From: an uncultured Flavobacteriales bacterium
Lineage (GTDB): Bacteria > Bacteroidota > Bacteroidia > Flavobacteriales > Crocinitomicaceae
Direction: 5' to 3'
Assembly: GCA_946479125.1 (NCBI GenBank)
Contig: CAMLET010000150.1
Span: forward strand, 1 to 7,282
DNA: 7,282 bases
Below the pieces are notes generated by a model, which ran no database searches, was not told the DNA's origin, and saw nothing but the letters and a program-made list of their open reading frames with translations. Shown in pieces: positions 1 through 7,116 of this stretch. Position numbers and translations under genes: made by a program. Position 1 is the stretch's first letter, and every line of letters begins with the position of its first letter.

Positions 1-180
1 GTTCTTATTCCCAATAATTGGAAATACAAATCACCACGATTAACAAACACATTGTGTAAAAGCGTTTTGTTTTTTTCGGAAAGATCAAAGCTGTTAGACA
101 AACTGAGTTTCATGTGTTATAAATTGCTACTTGGTCAAGCTTTAAATGCTGGATTCTATCAAAAAAAATATTCGTGTTGA
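1..180 (+). CDS. 3' end of an unidentified gene (partial, 59 residues visible)
   Basis: Frame 1 is open from the first base of the window to a TGA at 178-180, which overlaps the ATG of the next gene by one base (TGATG). This gives a 59-residue C-terminal fragment; its start lies outside the window. The tail is basic and rich in Lys, Leu and Phe, with a hydrophobic stretch (FMCYKLLLGQALNAGF) near the end and no catalytic motif I can recognise. The tight overlap with a glycosyltransferase gene suggests it belongs to the same operon and is probably another polysaccharide-biosynthesis enzyme. That is inference from position only, and I do not assign a function. Confidence 0.6.
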   Translation, partial: VLIPNNWKYKSPRLTNTLCKSVLFFSERSKLLDKLSFMCYKLLLGQALNAGFYQKKYSC

Positions 181-1283
181 TGAAAATCGCCTACATCATA
201 TCCGATATCAATAAGGCCGTGTTCTTTGAAAACACAGCCCTTGCTTTACGAGACGAGGGTTTTGACGTTTGTTATATCGTGATCAATTATGAAAATGGCG
301 CTTTAGTTGAATTTTTGAAGGAAAACCAATTCAACTATTACACGATTAAATCAGGGAAACTAAGCAGGTCTTTACCACATATTCTGAAGGTTCGAAAGAT
401 CTTAAAAAAAGAACAGGTCGATACTGTACATTGTCATTTGGCACAAGCTAATTGGATAGGTTTATGGGCTTCTTACCTCAAACGCATTCCGAATAGAATT
501 TACACGCGTCATTCGGGTGAACCTTTGACTTTAATGTGGAAAGAAAGGCTAATTGATTATATCCAAAACAGACTGGCGACTAGTATCGTTTCCATTTCAG
601 AGGTTATCGATGAGTTGTTAGCAAAACAAAAAGTACCACAACACAAGCGGGAAATCATTCATCATGGTTTTGAATTATCACGATTCAGCAACAATGATCA
701 GACTGAAGTTGCCCGAATAAAAAAAGCGTACAATCCAAATGAAAATCAGCCTGTAATTGGAGTGATTGCCAGATGGATGGAATGGAAAGGGATCCAATAT
801 ATCATAGAAGGATTTGTGTTGATTCTGGAAAAACATCCTAACGCTATTCTTTGCTTATTTGGTGCTCAAGGGCATGGAGATTATCATGAAGCACTTTCCA
901 ATCATCTTCACAAAATACCGTCAAGGAATCTACGTATTGTACCCTTCGAGAATAATGTTTTTGATCTTTACCAGTTGTTCGATGTATACGTTCACACTCC
1001 GGTAAATCCTACTTGTGAGGCATTCGGACAAACATATATTGAATCGTTAGCATCAGGAATTCCTTCTGTTTTTACCTCAAGTGGTATTGCCAGCGAATTT
1101 GTTGTTCATAGAGAACATGCACTTTTGGTCCCATTTCGAGACCCAAAAGCTATTGCCGATGCAATTCTTGAGACATTAGAAAACACCAAACTCGTAGAGA
1201 AAATGAAAAGTAACGGTGAGAAGATCGTTACTGAGCTTTTCGACTTCTCCGTGTATCAAAAAAACCTGATTAAGTTTTACCGC
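180..1283 (+). repeat. Copy 1 of an intragenic tandem duplication (GT4 unit A)
   Basis: This encodes about residues 1-368 of the double glycosyltransferase. It aligns without gaps to the second half at an offset of 1128 bases (376 codons) from the first strand to the NG of the C-terminal helix. After that a one-residue gap gives an offset of 375. The protein copies look roughly half identical by eye. DNA similarity is patchy, with only short exact matches such as the 14 bases at 660-673 and 1788-1801, so the duplication is old. Confidence 0.85.
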
Positions 1284-2414
1284 ACAAAGAATCTGGATAA
1301 GATCAAGCAGAAAATAATCTACGTTATTTCTGATGTTAAGAGAGCCGTTTATTTCGAGCAAACTGCCATCGCATTAAGAAATTTGAATTATGAAGTGATT
1401 TTTGTTCTCATCAGCTGCAAAAACTCTCATCTCGATATTTTTTTGAAGACCAACGGTTTCAAAAGATACTATTTAAATGTTGGTAAGCTTATTTTCTCCA
1501 CTCGTTCAATTTTGAAGCTACGTAGAATTTTAAAGCATGAAAATCCTTTATTAGTTCACACCCATCTTTCAAAAGCCAATTGGGTTGGGTTAACCGCTTC
1601 ATGGCTGTCAGGAATAAAAAAAAGAGTCTATACGCGTCATTCTGGAAAACCCTTGACCAAACATTTTAAAGAATCTGTATTGGACTCTATTCAAAATAAA
1701 ATTTCAACCCAAATTATAGCTGTCTCCAATAATGTCTCAAACATATTGAAAGAGCAGCAAGTAGCTGAAAGTAAACGAAAATTGGTGCATCATGGTTTTG
1801 ATCTTGAACGATTCGAAAACAAGGACATCGATGAAGTCAACAGAATACTTGAGTCATACAACCCAGAGAAAAAAAGCCCGGTCATTGGAGTCATTTCCAG
1901 ATGGATGGAGCTAAAAGGAATAGAATACATTATCAACGCATTTCTGAAACTTATTGAAGATTATCCAGATGCCAGACTCTGCATTTTCGGAGAAAGAAAT
2001 AATGATGAGTACGATTCCAGACTTCAAGAAAAACTGGAATTGATTCCCGAAAGAAATCTCTGTGTCGTCAATTTTGAGCACAATTGCTTCGATCTTTATA
2101 ACTTATTCGATATCTACATTCATGTTCCAATAAATGAAACTTGTGAAGCATTTGGACAAACGTACATTGAAGCACTTGCAGCCGGAGTTCCTTCCATTTT
2201 CACTTTAAGCGGAATTGCTCAAGAGTTTATTAAAGATGAATACAATGCGCTTGTTGTTCCATTTATGAATGATACAGAAATCTATAACGCTTGTACCCGA
2301 CTATTGAACGAGCCAAAACTTAAAGCTCAAATTATCGAAAACGGAAAAAAATCCGTTCAATCCTTTAACTTTGATACTTACATCGATCAATTGGTGAACG
2401 TTTATCTTTCATAA
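180..2414 (+). CDS. Tandem double-domain GT-B (GT4-type) glycosyltransferase
   Basis: The predicted protein of 744 residues consists of two complete, clearly homologous GT4-like units, about residues 1-368 and 377-744, joined by a short basic linker. Each unit shows the same landmarks: an N-terminal KI.Y.ISD strand, a YTRHSG loop (Y108-G113 in copy 1), an HHGF.L.RF stretch (H161 on), an R..xxKG donor-phosphate motif (R198/K203 and R574/K579) and an EX7E motif (E280/E288 and E656/E664). Both halves therefore look catalytically intact. A single GT4 enzyme is usually about 350-400 residues, so this is twice the normal length. It is likely cytoplasmic or membrane-peripheral, adding sugars from NDP donors to a lipid-linked glycan. 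E. coli WbdA is a known example of a polymerase with two GT4 domains. I chose ATG 180, which overlaps the upstream stop (TGATG) and begins the conserved first strand; GTG 174 and TTG 177 are in-frame alternatives. The stop overlaps the next ATG (TAATG). Donor, acceptor and linkage cannot be told from sequence. Confidence 0.9.
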   Translation: MKIAYIISDINKAVFFENTALALRDEGFDVCYIVINYENGALVEFLKENQFNYYTIKSGKLSRSLPHILKVRKILKKEQVDTVHCHLAQANWIGLWASYLKRIPNRIYTRHSGEPLTLMWKERLIDYIQNRLATSIVSISEVIDELLAKQKVPQHKREIIHHGFELSRFSNNDQTEVARIKKAYNPNENQPVIGVIARWMEWKGIQYIIEGFVLILEKHPNAILCLFGAQGHGDYHEALSNHLHKIPSRNLRIVPFENNVFDLYQLFDVYVHTPVNPTCEAFGQTYIESLASGIPSVFTSSGIASEFVVHREHALLVPFRDPKAIADAILETLENTKLVEKMKSNGEKIVTELFDFSVYQKNLIKFYRTKNLDKIKQKIIYVISDVKRAVYFEQTAIALRNLNYEVIFVLISCKNSHLDIFLKTNGFKRYYLNVGKLIFSTRSILKLRRILKHENPLLVHTHLSKANWVGLTASWLSGIKKRVYTRHSGKPLTKHFKESVLDSIQNKISTQIIAVSNNVSNILKEQQVAESKRKLVHHGFDLERFENKDIDEVNRILESYNPEKKSPVIGVISRWMELKGIEYIINAFLKLIEDYPDARLCIFGERNNDEYDSRLQEKLELIPERNLCVVNFEHNCFDLYNLFDIYIHVPINETCEAFGQTYIEALAAGVPSIFTLSGIAQEFIKDEYNALVVPFMNDTEIYNACTRLLNEPKLKAQIIENGKKSVQSFNFDTYIDQLVNVYLS
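1308..2411 (+). repeat. Copy 2 of an intragenic tandem duplication (GT4 unit B)
   Basis: This encodes about residues 377-744. The codon matching the initiator Met of copy 1 is CAG (Gln377), so the second copy has no start codon of its own at that point and is translated only as part of the fusion. The linker between the units is about eight residues, basic and Lys-rich (around residues 369-376). All glycosyltransferase landmarks, including EX7E at E656/E664 and R574/K579, are retained. Confidence 0.85.
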
Positions 2415-3301
2415 TGTCTGTGCAACTAACAATCGTTATTCCTACTTACAATCGTGCTCATTTAATTGAGAAGACGATAGAATCAGTTTTGAATCAAACG
2501 AGCAATGATTATGAAATAATTGTAATTGACGACGGAAGTACAGATGATACAGAAACTGTTGTTTCCAAGTACCTTGCAGATAACTTCAGATATTTCAAAA
2601 TTGAAAATTCTGAACGCGGAGCAGCCAGAAATGTAGGCACAACTCATGCAAAGGGAACTTACATGAATTGGTTCGATTCAGACGATGAAATGCTTCCTCA
2701 TCATGTAGAAACTGTTCTTGAAATGATTGACCAGCACAATTCTCCTGAGGTCATTACACTTACGTATTCTTTCAAAAACGCAAAAACAGAGGAAATCACT
2801 CCAAAAATTTTCGATAGTAAATCAAAACGTGATTTCCTGATTACCGGGAACTATCTTGCCTGTAATCCGGTTATTGTTCGAAGAGATATTGCGCTGAGTA
2901 ATCCATTTATTGAAGACAGAGACCTAAGCGCAAGTGAAGATTATGAACTTTGGCTGCGACTTTTTGCTCAATTTCCTTTTCACCATTCCGATAAAGTGAC
3001 ATCATATCTGGTTTTACACGACGAAAGAAGTGTGGTTACCATGACGAATCCTGAAAAGTTGGAAAAAAGATTCCTGAGCTTTTTGAACTATACGTGGCAC
3101 AATGATCTGCTGCATAAAAAACTTGGAAGCAGTATCAGCTATTTCATGATGCGCAATTATTTGATTCTGGCTGTCGATCTTGCCTATAACAAACACAAAC
3201 GAAAAGCATTCAAGTATTTGATTACCGCAACAAAAAATTCTCCAAAAGCAGTAACACAAAAAGTGTTTTGGGCGACACTAAAACACATTTGTCTGCGATG
3301 A
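2414..3301 (+). CDS. GT2-family (GT-A fold) glycosyltransferase
   Basis: This is a 295-residue enzyme predicted to transfer a sugar from a nucleotide donor to the growing lipid-linked glycan at the cytoplasmic face of the membrane. The N-terminus is a textbook GT2 start: the strand TIVIPTYNRA (residues 6-15) followed by VIDDGSTDD (residues 37-45), which binds the nucleotide. Next come R68-G69 and A71-R72-N73, typical of the family, then the metal-binding DxD-type motif as D88-S89-D90-D91. The likely catalytic-base region is S174-E175-D176-Y177 followed by W180. The C-terminal third is basic with short hydrophobic helices but no clear membrane anchor. The length fits single-domain GT2 enzymes. 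Its ATG shares a base with the stop of the double glycosyltransferase (TAATG), and its own TGA overlaps the hisH start, so it sits inside the operon. Specificity is unknown. Confidence 0.93.
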   Translation: MSVQLTIVIPTYNRAHLIEKTIESVLNQTSNDYEIIVIDDGSTDDTETVVSKYLADNFRYFKIENSERGAARNVGTTHAKGTYMNWFDSDDEMLPHHVETVLEMIDQHNSPEVITLTYSFKNAKTEEITPKIFDSKSKRDFLITGNYLACNPVIVRRDIALSNPFIEDRDLSASEDYELWLRLFAQFPFHHSDKVTSYLVLHDERSVVTMTNPEKLEKRFLSFLNYTWHNDLLHKKLGSSISYFMMRNYLILAVDLAYNKHKRKAFKYLITATKNSPKAVTQKVFWATLKHICLR

Positions 3302-3924
3302 TAAAACCAAAGGTTCATATTTTGTCATTGAACGGAGGGAACATTAATTCCATCATTAACGCTCTTGAAAAAATTGGCGCCCAAGGTCAGGAAGTTCTTA
3401 CAAAATCAGATCTTGAAAGCGCAACACACCTCATCATTCCAGGAATTGGTCATTTCGACCGAGCAATGAAACACCTCAGGGAGAGCAACTTCATCCCCAC
3501 TTTAAAATTGCTGATTCAGGAAAAACGAATTCCAACCCTTGGAATTTGTTTAGGTATGCATCTATTGGCAAAAAGCAGTACTGAAGGCGAACAAGAAGGT
3601 TTGAATATATTTTTCAATTCACAAGTGACTGAATTAAAAGTCACGAACTCACAGCGCTTTAAAATCCCACATAACGGTTGGAATACTTTGACAATTGAAA
3701 AAAATTGCTCTTTGCTTGAAGGAATTTCTGACAGCGATGAATTCTTTTTCTTACACAAGTATGTATGGGAGAGCACTGACAAACATGAAGTTGTTGCCAC
3801 AACAGCATATGAAAGTGGTTTTCCTTCTGTAATTGGTAATGACAATTGTTGGGGAGTCCAATTTCATCCTGAAAAAAGCCATGAAGCCGGATTAAGACTT
3901 CTTAAAAACTTTATTCAACTATAA
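3298..3924 (+). CDS. hisH: HisH-like glutamine amidotransferase subunit of an acetamidino-sugar system
   Basis: This is a 208-residue class I (triad) glutamine amidotransferase. It hydrolyses glutamine and passes ammonia to its HisF-like partner. The nucleophile is C84 in GICLGM, and the other triad members are H190 and E192 in VQFHPEKS. The PGIGHF loop and PHNGWN are also HisH hallmarks. One oddity is position 88: the Gln that usually follows in GICLGMQ is His here. I chose ATG 3298, which overlaps the preceding stop as ATGA and opens directly into the first strand (MIKPKVHIL); a TTG at 3268 would add ten residues from inside the upstream gene. The stop shares a base with the HisF-like start (TAATG), as expected for subunits made together. 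With a WbpG-type enzyme two genes downstream and no other his gene in view, the role is most likely ammonia supply for sugar amidination, not histidine synthesis. Confidence 0.92.
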   Translation: MIKPKVHILSLNGGNINSIINALEKIGAQGQEVLTKSDLESATHLIIPGIGHFDRAMKHLRESNFIPTLKLLIQEKRIPTLGICLGMHLLAKSSTEGEQEGLNIFFNSQVTELKVTNSQRFKIPHNGWNTLTIEKNCSLLEGISDSDEFFFLHKYVWESTDKHEVVATTAYESGFPSVIGNDNCWGVQFHPEKSHEAGLRLLKNFIQL

Positions 3925-4676
3925 TGTTCAGACCGCGAATCATACCCATTTTGCTGTTGAGCAATGGTGCTGCTGTAAAAACAAAGCAATTTGCTAACGC
4001 AACATATCTAGGCGACATCATCAATACTGCTCGCATTTTTAGTGAATTTGGTGCGGATGAATTGATTGTGTTAGACATTGATGCAGCTAAAGAGCAACGC
4101 TGTATAAGTCCTGAATTGGTTCGTGAACTGAGTGAAGAAACCGGAATGCCACTGGCTGTTGGCGGTGGAATTAGTTCCGAAGACGGAATTGCGGGTTTGC
4201 TGAACGCCGGAGCTGAAAAAGTAATCCTTGGCACAAACGTTTTTAAAAATTCCGATTTTGTAAAACAAGCTGCACAGGAGTTTGGAAGTTCAACCATTTC
4301 CGTTTGCGTTGACGTTTACAGGAATCAAGAACCGGAAGTCCGATTCTACAATGGAACCATTAAATCACAAATTGGTTTAGAACAGACAATTAAACACTTT
4401 GAGCGATTAGGAGTTGGGGAAATCATTGTTCAATCCATAAATAACGATGGAATGCGCACAGGCTATGATTTAGAAACAATTTCAAAAGCAGCTTTAATCT
4501 CTACAGTCCCAATAGTTGCACTTGGCGGCGCAGGATCTTTGGAAGATATTTCTGAAGCTTATTCAAAAACCAACTGCAGCGCCTTTGCAGCTTCCTCACT
4601 ATTTGTTTTTTATAAAAACGGTGTACTCATCTCTTATCCCGAAAAATCACAAATACAACAATTGTTCAACAGATAG
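3924..4676 (+). CDS. hisF: HisF-like protein, AglZ/HisF2-type acetamidino-modification partner
   Basis: This 250-residue (beta/alpha)8 barrel is homologous to the cyclase subunit of imidazole glycerol phosphate synthase. It begins RPRIIPILLLSNG, aligning position by position with the RIIACLDVKDG of true HisF, followed by VKT. Further on come LIVLDIDA, GGGISS, CVDVYR and GGAGS, the last two glycine-rich stretches being the usual phosphate-binding loops. Of the two catalytic aspartates of HisF, the second is present (D130) but the first (D11) is Leu. Loss of that Asp fits the HisF2/WbuZ-type branch that works with N-acetyl sugar amidotransferases. There the barrel is thought to act as an ammonia conduit and scaffold, not as a cyclase. 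Its start overlaps the hisH stop by one base. The 86-base gap after it separates it from the amidotransferase gene. The family assignment is secure; the non-histidine role rests on context and the missing Asp. Confidence 0.92.
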   Translation: MFRPRIIPILLLSNGAAVKTKQFANATYLGDIINTARIFSEFGADELIVLDIDAAKEQRCISPELVRELSEETGMPLAVGGGISSEDGIAGLLNAGAEKVILGTNVFKNSDFVKQAAQEFGSSTISVCVDVYRNQEPEVRFYNGTIKSQIGLEQTIKHFERLGVGEIIVQSINNDGMRTGYDLETISKAALISTVPIVALGGAGSLEDISEAYSKTNCSAFAASSLFVFYKNGVLISYPEKSQIQQLFNR

Positions 4677-4757: not shown

Positions 4758-4762
4758 TAGTG

Positions 4763-5890
4763 ATGACTACTCCAGTTTACCAAATTTGTCGTCGGTGTGT
4801 TATGGACACTACCGATCCGGACATCGTTTTCGATCCGGAAGGGAACTGTAATCATTGTAATAATTATCTCGAAAATTTAGTTCCACAGTCTTATCAGGGA
4901 GAAAAAAGTGATCAAAAATTAAACGAGATAGTTGCATCCATTATGAAAAGCGGAAATTCAAAAAAATACGATTGTATTATTGGAATTAGTGGTGGTGTTG
5001 ACAGTTGTTATACTGCCTATCTCGCTAAGGAATTGGGCTTAAGGGCACTTCTTGTCCACTTGGACAACGGATGGAACAGCGATATTTCCGTTAGAAACAT
5101 TCAAAAAATGTGCGTTGCACTTGATTTCGATTATGAAGCTGTGGTTTTAGATTGGAGCGAGTTTCGACAAATTCAATTGGCTTTCTTGCGCTCTTCTTTG
5201 GTAGATATTGAAATGCCTACGGATCTAGCTATTCCCGCAGCGCTGCACCAAAAAGCAGCTCAGTACGGAGTTAAATTCATTCTCTCAGGTGGCAATTACG
5301 TGAGCGAAGGAATTTTGCCATTGCAGTGGGGATACCATGTAATGAAGGATATGAAACTGTATAATCATATCGTAAAAACTTATGGTACCGTTAAGCGAAA
5401 GAAAACACCGGTATTTGGTGTTCGTCAGGAAACCTATTATAAGCTGGTTAAGGGGATTAAATCAGTGTATTTACTGAATTACATTCCGTACAATCCAGAA
5501 GAAGCAAAACGATTTCTGGAGGAAAAATTCGGATGTAACTATTCCATCGGTAAACACCATGAATCAAGATATACACGTTTTTGGCAGTCTTATCTCATGC
5601 CAACCAAATACCATTTTGATTACCGAAAAGCCACGCTTTCCAATCAAATCTGTTCAGGTCAAACTACACGCCCGGAAGCTCTTAAAAAACTCGAAGACCT
5701 ACCATATTTAGGGTTAGATGTAGATAAAGAGTGTGAGTACATTTGTAAGAAACTGGGGATTTCTGAACAGGAAGCAATAGAAATCATGAAAGCAAAACCA
5801 CTTACTTACAAAAGCTTTCCGAACGGAGAAAAATGGATTAACTTTACTTTTAAAGTTTACAAATTCCTTTTCCCGAATAAGCGTCTGTAA
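4763..5890 (+). CDS. N-acetyl sugar amidotransferase (WbpG/PseA/WbuX family)
   Basis: This 375-residue PP-loop ATPase is predicted to activate the amide of an N-acetylated sugar with ATP and attack it with ammonia from the HisH/HisF pair, giving an acetamidino group. The N-terminus has two CxxC pairs, C9/C12 in CRRCVMDTTDP and C29/C32 in CNHC, probably a metal site. The pyrophosphate-binding loop is S76-G-G-V-D-S81, followed by LLVHLDNGW. The C-terminal half carries the HHESRYTRFWQ and CSGQTTRPEAL stretches that I associate with this family, and the length matches its usual 370-380 residues. ATG 4763 is preferred: GTG 4760 would add one residue, and the next Met (residue 14) would remove the first CxxC. 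No Shine-Dalgarno is seen, and the promoter just upstream may leave almost no leader. The known products of such enzymes include ManNAc3NAmA, FucNAm and acetamidino pseudaminic acid; which applies here is unknown. Confidence 0.94.
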   Translation: MTTPVYQICRRCVMDTTDPDIVFDPEGNCNHCNNYLENLVPQSYQGEKSDQKLNEIVASIMKSGNSKKYDCIIGISGGVDSCYTAYLAKELGLRALLVHLDNGWNSDISVRNIQKMCVALDFDYEAVVLDWSEFRQIQLAFLRSSLVDIEMPTDLAIPAALHQKAAQYGVKFILSGGNYVSEGILPLQWGYHVMKDMKLYNHIVKTYGTVKRKKTPVFGVRQETYYKLVKGIKSVYLLNYIPYNPEEAKRFLEEKFGCNYSIGKHHESRYTRFWQSYLMPTKYHFDYRKATLSNQICSGQTTRPEALKKLEDLPYLGLDVDKECEYICKKLGISEQEAIEIMKAKPLTYKSFPNGEKWINFTFKVYKFLFPNKRL

Positions 5891-7116
5891 TGACAAAACA
5901 TGTCCTTTTTGTTTCTTATGATGGTATGACTGATCCGCTTGGACAAAGTCAGGTTTTACCCTATTTAATCGGACTTCAAAAAAAGGGATACAAGATAAGC
6001 TTGATCAGTTTTGAGAAACCAGAACGTTTTCAAAGTGATCGTGAACATATTCAATCGATCTGTGACAAGGAACAGATCAATTGGCATCCACTGGCTTATA
6101 CAAAACGCCCACCTGTACTTTCAACCGTTTTTGATATCTGGAAAATGAAACGAAAGTTTCGTGAAATTAATTCGGAAACAAAAGTTGATCTGCTTCATTG
6201 CCGAAGTTACATTTCTGCGTTTTTGGGGTTAAAACATCAAAAAACAATTCCATGGATATTCGATATGCGCGGCTTTTGGGCTGATGAGCGTGTGGAAGGC
6301 AATATCTGGAACATTGACAAACCCTTGTACAAAAAGATCTATCAGTTTTTTAAAAAGAAGGAACTACGTTTTTTTAATGAAAGTACAGCCGTTGTTAGTC
6401 TCACGCACGCTGGAAAAACTGAAATTCTATCGTGGAAAGAGTTAAAGGTTTCTGAACAAAAAATCACTGTGATTCCATGTTGCGTTGATCTGGCATTGTT
6501 TGATCCTGATCGCGTTTCAAAAGAACAAATTGAAGACAAACGAATTGAACTCGGACTTGAAAACAAACGCGTTATTGGCTATATTGGTTCAATTGGTACC
6601 TGGTACATGTTAACTGAAATGCTGCAAGCCTTTAAGAGATTACATGCTGATGACAATAATTCCGTTTTTCTCTTTGTAACAAAAGAACCAGCACATTTAA
6701 TTCTCAATGAAGCTTCTAAATTGGGTATTCAAACAGAATCAATTAAGATCGTTTCAGCACTGCATAAGCAGGTTCCTGTTTTCGCTTCATTATTTGATTG
6801 TTCCATTTTCTTCATCAAACCCAGTTTTTCAAAGACAGCATCATCGCCAACAAAACAAGGTGAATTGATGGCAATGGGAATTCCGATCATTTGTAATTCG
6901 GGAGTTGGTGATACAGCAAAAGTTGTTGAACAATACGCAGCCGGACTTGTGGTAAACGTAAATGAACTGAATGAAAATTCACTTACATTTAGCACTTTGG
7001 AAAAAAAGTTCAATCAAACATCTGCAAAACAGGGGGCTCAAGATTTTTACAGTTTGGAAGCTGGAATTTCTAAGTATGATTTGGTATATAAATCTTGTCT
7101 TTCTGCGCAAAAATGA
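5890..7116 (+). CDS. GT4-family (GT-B fold) glycosyltransferase
   Basis: This 408-residue glycosyltransferase probably adds one sugar of the repeat unit to a lipid-linked acceptor in the cytoplasm. The N-terminal domain opens with HVLFVSYDGMTDPLGQSQVL (residues 4-23), containing the Gly-rich acceptor-side loop, and later has FDMRGFWADER, common in this GT4 branch. The C-terminal domain begins near VIPCCVD and IGYIGSIGTWY and ends with SPTKQGELMAMG (S319-G330) and CNSGVGD, the donor-binding region. Only the second Glu of the classical EX7E is present (E325); the first position is Ala317, as I recall for the branch with an S-PTK-E motif. The start overlaps the amidotransferase stop (TAATG), so the two are probably translated together. 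Its place directly after a hisH-hisF-wbpG set recalls wbpH in P. aeruginosa, which makes transfer of the amidinated sugar or its neighbour a reasonable guess. Confidence 0.92.
   Translation: MTKHVLFVSYDGMTDPLGQSQVLPYLIGLQKKGYKISLISFEKPERFQSDREHIQSICDKEQINWHPLAYTKRPPVLSTVFDIWKMKRKFREINSETKVDLLHCRSYISAFLGLKHQKTIPWIFDMRGFWADERVEGNIWNIDKPLYKKIYQFFKKKELRFFNESTAVVSLTHAGKTEILSWKELKVSEQKITVIPCCVDLALFDPDRVSKEQIEDKRIELGLENKRVIGYIGSIGTWYMLTEMLQAFKRLHADDNNSVFLFVTKEPAHLILNEASKLGIQTESIKIVSALHKQVPVFASLFDCSIFFIKPSFSKTASSPTKQGELMAMGIPIICNSGVGDTAKVVEQYAAGLVVNVNELNENSLTFSTLEKKFNQTSAKQGAQDFYSLEAGISKYDLVYKSCLSAQK

Follow-up and report, generated by a model that had tools for sequence, protein, structure and literature searches.

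A conserved tandem fusion of two GT4 glycosyltransferase units in a putative surface polysaccharide cluster of an uncultured Flavobacteriales bacterium

The mannosyl polymerase WbdA of Escherichia coli O9/O9a and Klebsiella pneumoniae O3 is described in PMC11231755 as a single polypeptide with two glycosyltransferase (GT) modules that use one donor type and form different linkages; the same paper calls it unclear what sets the distribution of modules over polypeptides. Here we describe a protein of similar plan, namely two GT4 units fused in tandem, which is encoded at positions 180..2414 of contig CAMLET010000150.1 (assembly GCA_946479125.1) from an uncultured Flavobacteriales bacterium of the Crocinitomicaceae. 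The whole analysed stretch of 7282 bases is referred to as the window. WbdA works together with WbdD in an ABC-transporter system (PMC11231755), and it is by the description of its modules that we liken it to the fused protein. Among known structures, the best match of both units was HepE (Alr3699) of Anabaena, solved with uridine diphosphate (UDP) and glucose, which differs from the fused protein in being a single unit and in sharing 18-19% identity. In the open-licence PMC literature we found no paper that deals with this fusion or with tandem GT4 pairs of Fluviicola-type bacteria. Our analysis revealed that the fusion is real, conserved and rare and that its parts are ordinary.

The fused protein and its second unit

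The open reading frame (ORF) extends from an ATG at 180 to a stop codon at 2412-2414 and encodes 744 amino acids, with an alternative GTG start 6 bases upstream. It is composed of unit A (residues 1-368, 180..1283), a linker of eight residues (369-376, 1284..1307) and unit B (residues 377-744, 1308..2411), all on the plus strand. Both units match GT4 profiles and structures with two Rossmann-like domains each, and in predicted structures both fold as complete GT-B units, as expected from a sequence-only reading of the window, which had proposed two complete units in tandem. Specifically, A and B share 180 identities over 368 aligned columns (49%), and their global alignment score is 945, whereas shuffling one half 500 times gave scores of 5.5 at most. 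The alignment contains one internal gap only, near the C-terminus, and therefore the constant offset of 376 residues noted in that reading is valid up to this gap. The same reading held that the initiator Met of the second copy had become Gln377; a Gln is aligned at this position, but three orthologues carry Arg, Lys and Lys there, so that the claim stands as a statement about the alignment only.

The donor motifs that the sequence-only reading gave as R..KG and EX7E were recovered in both units, as R-x4-K and E-x7-E. Unit A contains R198-x4-K203 (771..788) and E280-x7-E288 (1017..1043), and unit B contains R574-x4-K579 (1899..1916) and E656-x7-E664 (2145..2171). The two E-x7-E pairs occupy corresponding positions, and a third match to this pattern, at E114 of unit A, is without counterpart in B. 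All four motif residues of A align with HepE (4/4), and three of the four in B align with BshA (3/4): the E-x7-E residues correspond, and in the sequence alignment K579 is matched by Lys and R574 by Asn. The fused protein is predicted to be a retaining GT4 enzyme of the GT-B type.

Single-unit relatives are abundant, with 1632 matches at E 1e-40, and for a comparison with the family we used 100 full-length ones (364-396 amino acids) from the best 120 of these 1632. Columns with the same residue in at least 97% of these singles were regarded as conserved, which gave 84 columns, 44 in the acceptor half and 40 in the donor half. The A units of four fused proteins (A1-A4; three of these proteins are introduced below) break 1, 1, 1 and 3 of these columns, and the B units (B1-B4) break 5, 6, 8 and 10. 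Every break falls in the acceptor half and none in the donor half. To obtain a control, we set every one of the 100 singles against those singles that are less than 72% identical to it; the mean number of breaks was 0.56 in the acceptor half and 0.39 in the donor half (largest 4 and 2). The changes common to all four B units are I6 to V or A, K12R, C85T and I139V; the only one common to all four A units is L34V. Mean identity to the 100 singles tells the same halves apart, with 57% (acceptor half) and 55% (donor half) for A1 and 47% and 54% for B1, and the half-to-half skew of B1, B2, B3 and B4 was reached by 1, 1, 0 and 0 of the 100 singles. Judged by sequence, unit A is therefore family-typical, and the pattern in unit B supports the same donor with a changed acceptor. 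This had been suggested before and fits the family comparison best. The accompanying claim that the acceptor halves are the more diverged ones is weak when A is compared with B of the same protein (48% on the acceptor side, 52% on the donor side) and clear when B is compared with the family.

Distribution and origin of the fusion

A homologue search with the fused protein scored 7999 candidates, 18 of which reached E 0.001. Among them are three further full-length fusions of exactly 744 amino acids that are 90, 75 and 70% identical (P0002, P0003, P0004, on contigs of 22, 28 and 2341 kb), and since the fusion is shared by these proteins it is no artefact. Chance similarity or an assembly artefact can thus be ruled out, given the 500 shuffles and the three further 744-residue fusions, as can two separate ORFs, since neither this frame nor that of any of the three orthologues is interrupted by a stop between A and B. 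Across the four fusions (P0001-P0004) the linker is constant in length and variable in sequence, the R-x4-K and E-x7-E residues of both units are retained, and unit B differs by up to 34%. Gene conversion between A and B left no consistent sign: the identity of the own A/B pair in P0001-P0003 is not above all cross-pair identities, and only in P0004 is it slightly above (0.518 compared with 0.482-0.507 for its A).

The GT4-GT4 fusion is rare; the sequence-only reading had called fused pairs of near-equal, still-active GT units uncommon. In the family group of genome G001, 12 of 240 genomes contain a match at E 1e-60; every matching frame is 370-380 amino acids long, identities to B are 36-55%, and none of the 12 contains a fused copy; a separate draw took 200 genomes of the same group. 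Of 399 genomes searched in the order group, 14 match at E 1e-75; these show no fused copy and no match to more than one unit. The genome_contigs set contained no fused copy either, with two single-unit loci only. A frame of 672 amino acids in G106 consists of a GT4 and a GT2 on either side of a stop. Viral contigs yielded no fused copy: 20 stretches match a search pattern, and 0 of them encode a relative.

Other proteins among the 18 show related joins, some of them of a GT4 with the product of a further envelope gene. P0005 (758 amino acids) has the same GT4-GT4 architecture as the window's protein, with halves that are 44% identical to each other, but it is only 35% identical to the window's protein over 98%. 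In a 40-row tree a 100/100 branch separates both of its halves from A and B, and a single clade of all fused halves is rejected (approximately unbiased (AU) test, p 6e-71), for which reasons P0005 is best read as an independent GT4-GT4 fusion; a clade of its own two halves is neither shown nor rejected (p 0.107). On the basis of these trees, the GT4-GT4 fusion most likely arose at least two times in the wider family. P0006 and P0009 also contain a related GT4, but their second module is a GT2 instead of a GT4. Because these GT2 parts resemble the GT2 encoded in the window (39 and 33% identical), GT4 and GT2 are a recurrent pair. A related GT4 is joined to an Acyl_transf_3 acyltransferase in P0008, P0010 and P0015, and to another GT in P0011.

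For the origin of the two units, a duplication in place and a joining of paralogues that were distinct beforehand both stand, and we give the latter an even chance; it would be compatible with the function proposed below. The trees included 57 of the 100 singles (69-row tree and half-alignment trees, six long outgroup rows excluded) or 22 of them (40-row tree). In both the 69- and the 40-row tree the four A units form one group (100/100) nested among the Fluviicola-type singles. The B units, likewise in one group of four (100/100), fall outside the clade of A and these singles, with support of 92/84 and 96/92 (69 rows) and 87/84 and 97/94 (40 rows). This placement favours a fusion of paralogues and speaks against the old internal duplication proposed in the sequence-only reading. 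However, a clade of A and B is not rejected (AU p 0.156 with 69 rows, 0.0635 with 40 rows), and with the half-alignments it has a better fit than the unconstrained quick tree (p 0.645 and 0.661), so that a duplication still stands. Also against a fusion of paralogues, no B-like single occurs among the best 120 of 1199 matches to a profile made from B only, where the highest identity to B is 56%; most of these 120 are also among the best 120 of 1632. The stems of A and B are long in the 69-row tree (0.58 and 0.63 changes per column).

Gene neighbourhood and single-unit relatives

The genes of the window form a dense row on the plus strand, with overlaps of one to four bases at four junctions and a GC content of 33-41% per 500-base window; a tRNA search of the 7282 bases found none. 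The row starts with the last 59 codons of a gene whose family was not recognised (1-180), the TGA of which (178-180) overlaps the start of the fused gene. The stop of the fused gene is in turn overlapped by the ATG of a GT2 family glycosyltransferase (2414..3301). A HisH-like glutamine amidotransferase follows at 3298..3924, if its start is placed at ATG 3298 (the ORF as called mechanically opens at TTG 3268), and then a HisF-like protein (3924..4676), for which the nearest models, AglZ/HisF2 (259 of 310 bits) and WbuZ (231.5 of 299.7 bits), both remain below cut-off. Among the NCBIfam profiles, TIGR01855 is above cut-off in this HisH/HisF-type gene set. Further downstream are a WbuX-type N-acetyl sugar amidotransferase (4760..5890; TIGR03573, 260.2 bits with a cut-off of 203.2), a third GT4-type glycosyltransferase (5890..7116), whose best profile matches belong to a different GT4 group, and, from 7131, an epimerase-like gene of which the window includes the first 50 codons. 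The latter shares 74 and 70% identity with the corresponding genes of loci L001 and L002, and the L002 counterpart belongs to the Pfam family Epimerase.

WbuX together with HisH- and HisF-like partners is an established gene set for acetamidino sugars, and since a WbuX-family amidotransferase and both partners are present, the window looks like a surface polysaccharide cluster whose glycan probably carries an acetamidino sugar. As described in PMC10607449, WbuX is required for L-FucNAm in E. coli O145, and WbpG of Pseudomonas aeruginosa O5 is needed for the acetimido group of the first O-unit sugar. The closest named relatives are Flavobacteriales metagenome-assembled genomes and Fluviicola, and the source bacterium is probably related to the latter.

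The closest known single-unit counterparts are GT4 proteins of Fluviicola-type Bacteroidota (PF13439 and PF00534), which are full-length and up to 61% identical to A (best 120 of 1632) and up to 56% identical to B (best 120 of 1199). In seven close loci (L001, L002 and L007-L011) such a protein, 57-59% identical to A, occupies the slot of the fused gene and is followed by a GT2 (52-61%) and then by WbuX (58-63%; in L007-L011 the end of the locus truncates this gene), which is the order found in the window. In 7/7 loci the GT4 gene differs from the fused one in coding for a single unit that terminates at a stop of its own, so that in place of two separate ORFs, an arrangement that would have spoken against the fusion, the close relatives have one single-unit ORF. 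The loci also differ from the window in that no HisH/HisF genes lie between GT2 and WbuX in any of the seven (3298-4676 in the window); HisF-like proteins (42-44%) are encoded elsewhere in 6/7 of these genomes. In four of the seven (L001, L002, L008, L009) the GT2 start is in the same frame as the single GT4, one codon past its stop. The gene order after WbuX is GT4-epimerase in the window and epimerase-GT4 in L001 and L002. In genome G098 (L013, L017) two separate GT4-family members with 47 and 34% identity were found on one contig, approximately 3 kb apart.

Proposed function and alternative readings

We consider it moderately likely that the fused protein is a bifunctional retaining GT4 enzyme in which A performs the ancestral step and B uses the same donor on a changed acceptor, with a hand-over across the linker. 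Unit A would do the job of the relatives' single GT4 in the same slot, that is, use a nucleotide donor to add a sugar to a lipid-linked glycan. Since B keeps its donor side and has a changed acceptor side, it would most likely attach a second residue to another acceptor while the glycan is still on the enzyme. The donor of this residue would be identical or very similar to that of A, and the acceptor is probably what A, or the following GT2, has produced. The eight-residue linker of constant length would hold both sites together for this hand-over. The data show two complete units in a conserved fusion, an intact donor side in both, a diverged acceptor side in B and the operon position; the shared donor, the order of action, the hand-over and the nature of the glycan are our inference.

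Several points weigh against this proposal. The four changes fixed in the acceptor half of B, compared with none in its donor half, are not significant alone (Fisher p 0.12), and the reference singles lean towards A because the profile that ranked them holds A, B and two A-like singles. I6 and K12 are located near the junction, so that acceptor-side change could reflect packing after fusion, and C85T is the state found in the distant homologue P0007 and may therefore be old instead of new. The model of the whole protein has a predicted template modelling (pTM) score of 0.54 and so does not define how the two units are arranged. To our knowledge, no substrate or activity has been described for a close member of the family.

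For the latter reason two units with different donors might be considered, as we know of no donor for any close homologue. The donor half is, however, the conserved half of B, with an identity to the 100 singles that is practically that of A (54% for B1, 55% for A1), which makes this decidedly improbable. Least likely in our view is that one unit is active and the other supports it structurally or as a regulator, the fusion then imitating a homodimer in covalent form. Fused enzyme duplicates can split labour in this way, and B is the more diverged unit, but some conserved donor columns should have been lost from a copy without catalytic function, whereas B retains all 40 of them, together with its motif residues, across four fusions in which this unit diverges by as much as 34%. 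In the models both units fold; the sequence-only reading had named a half without a folded active site as a possible objection.

A chain polymerase similar to WbdA, in which A and B alternate at the growing end and build a long chain with two linkages, had also been suggested in the sequence-only reading; it is possible, but we regard it as unlikely. The plan of two GT modules per chain and one donor type is the same (PMC11231755), and in two of the seven single-unit relatives (G106, G012) an ABC2_membrane gene lies 11-12 kb from the operon on the same contig, as in ABC export. Against this stand two further GT genes in the window and a Wzx-like PF13440 gene approximately 4-5 kb away in three of the seven (G001, G061, G090), which fits a repeat-unit pathway. 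In G002 and G032 neither family occurs on the contig of the GT4. The 7.3-kb window contains neither exporter type nor a chain terminator, and the export data are those of single-unit relatives; since the route varies among these seven, it does not decide between a repeat-unit and a WbdA-like pathway.

Multi-module glycosyltransferases determine the repeat structure of bacterial surface polysaccharides. The unfused form occupies the same slot in seven relatives, and the asymmetry between A and B points to a few acceptor-side positions of the unit, 6, 12, 85 and 139, as those that may have changed the linkage. Tentatively, one lineage may have replaced the single GT4 of this operon with an in-line pair whose second member changed its acceptor and not its donor, so that its surface glycan might have been extended by a further residue of that sugar or be a chain with two linkages. 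If so, the operon would provide a natural before/after pair for the origin of a dual-module polymerase.
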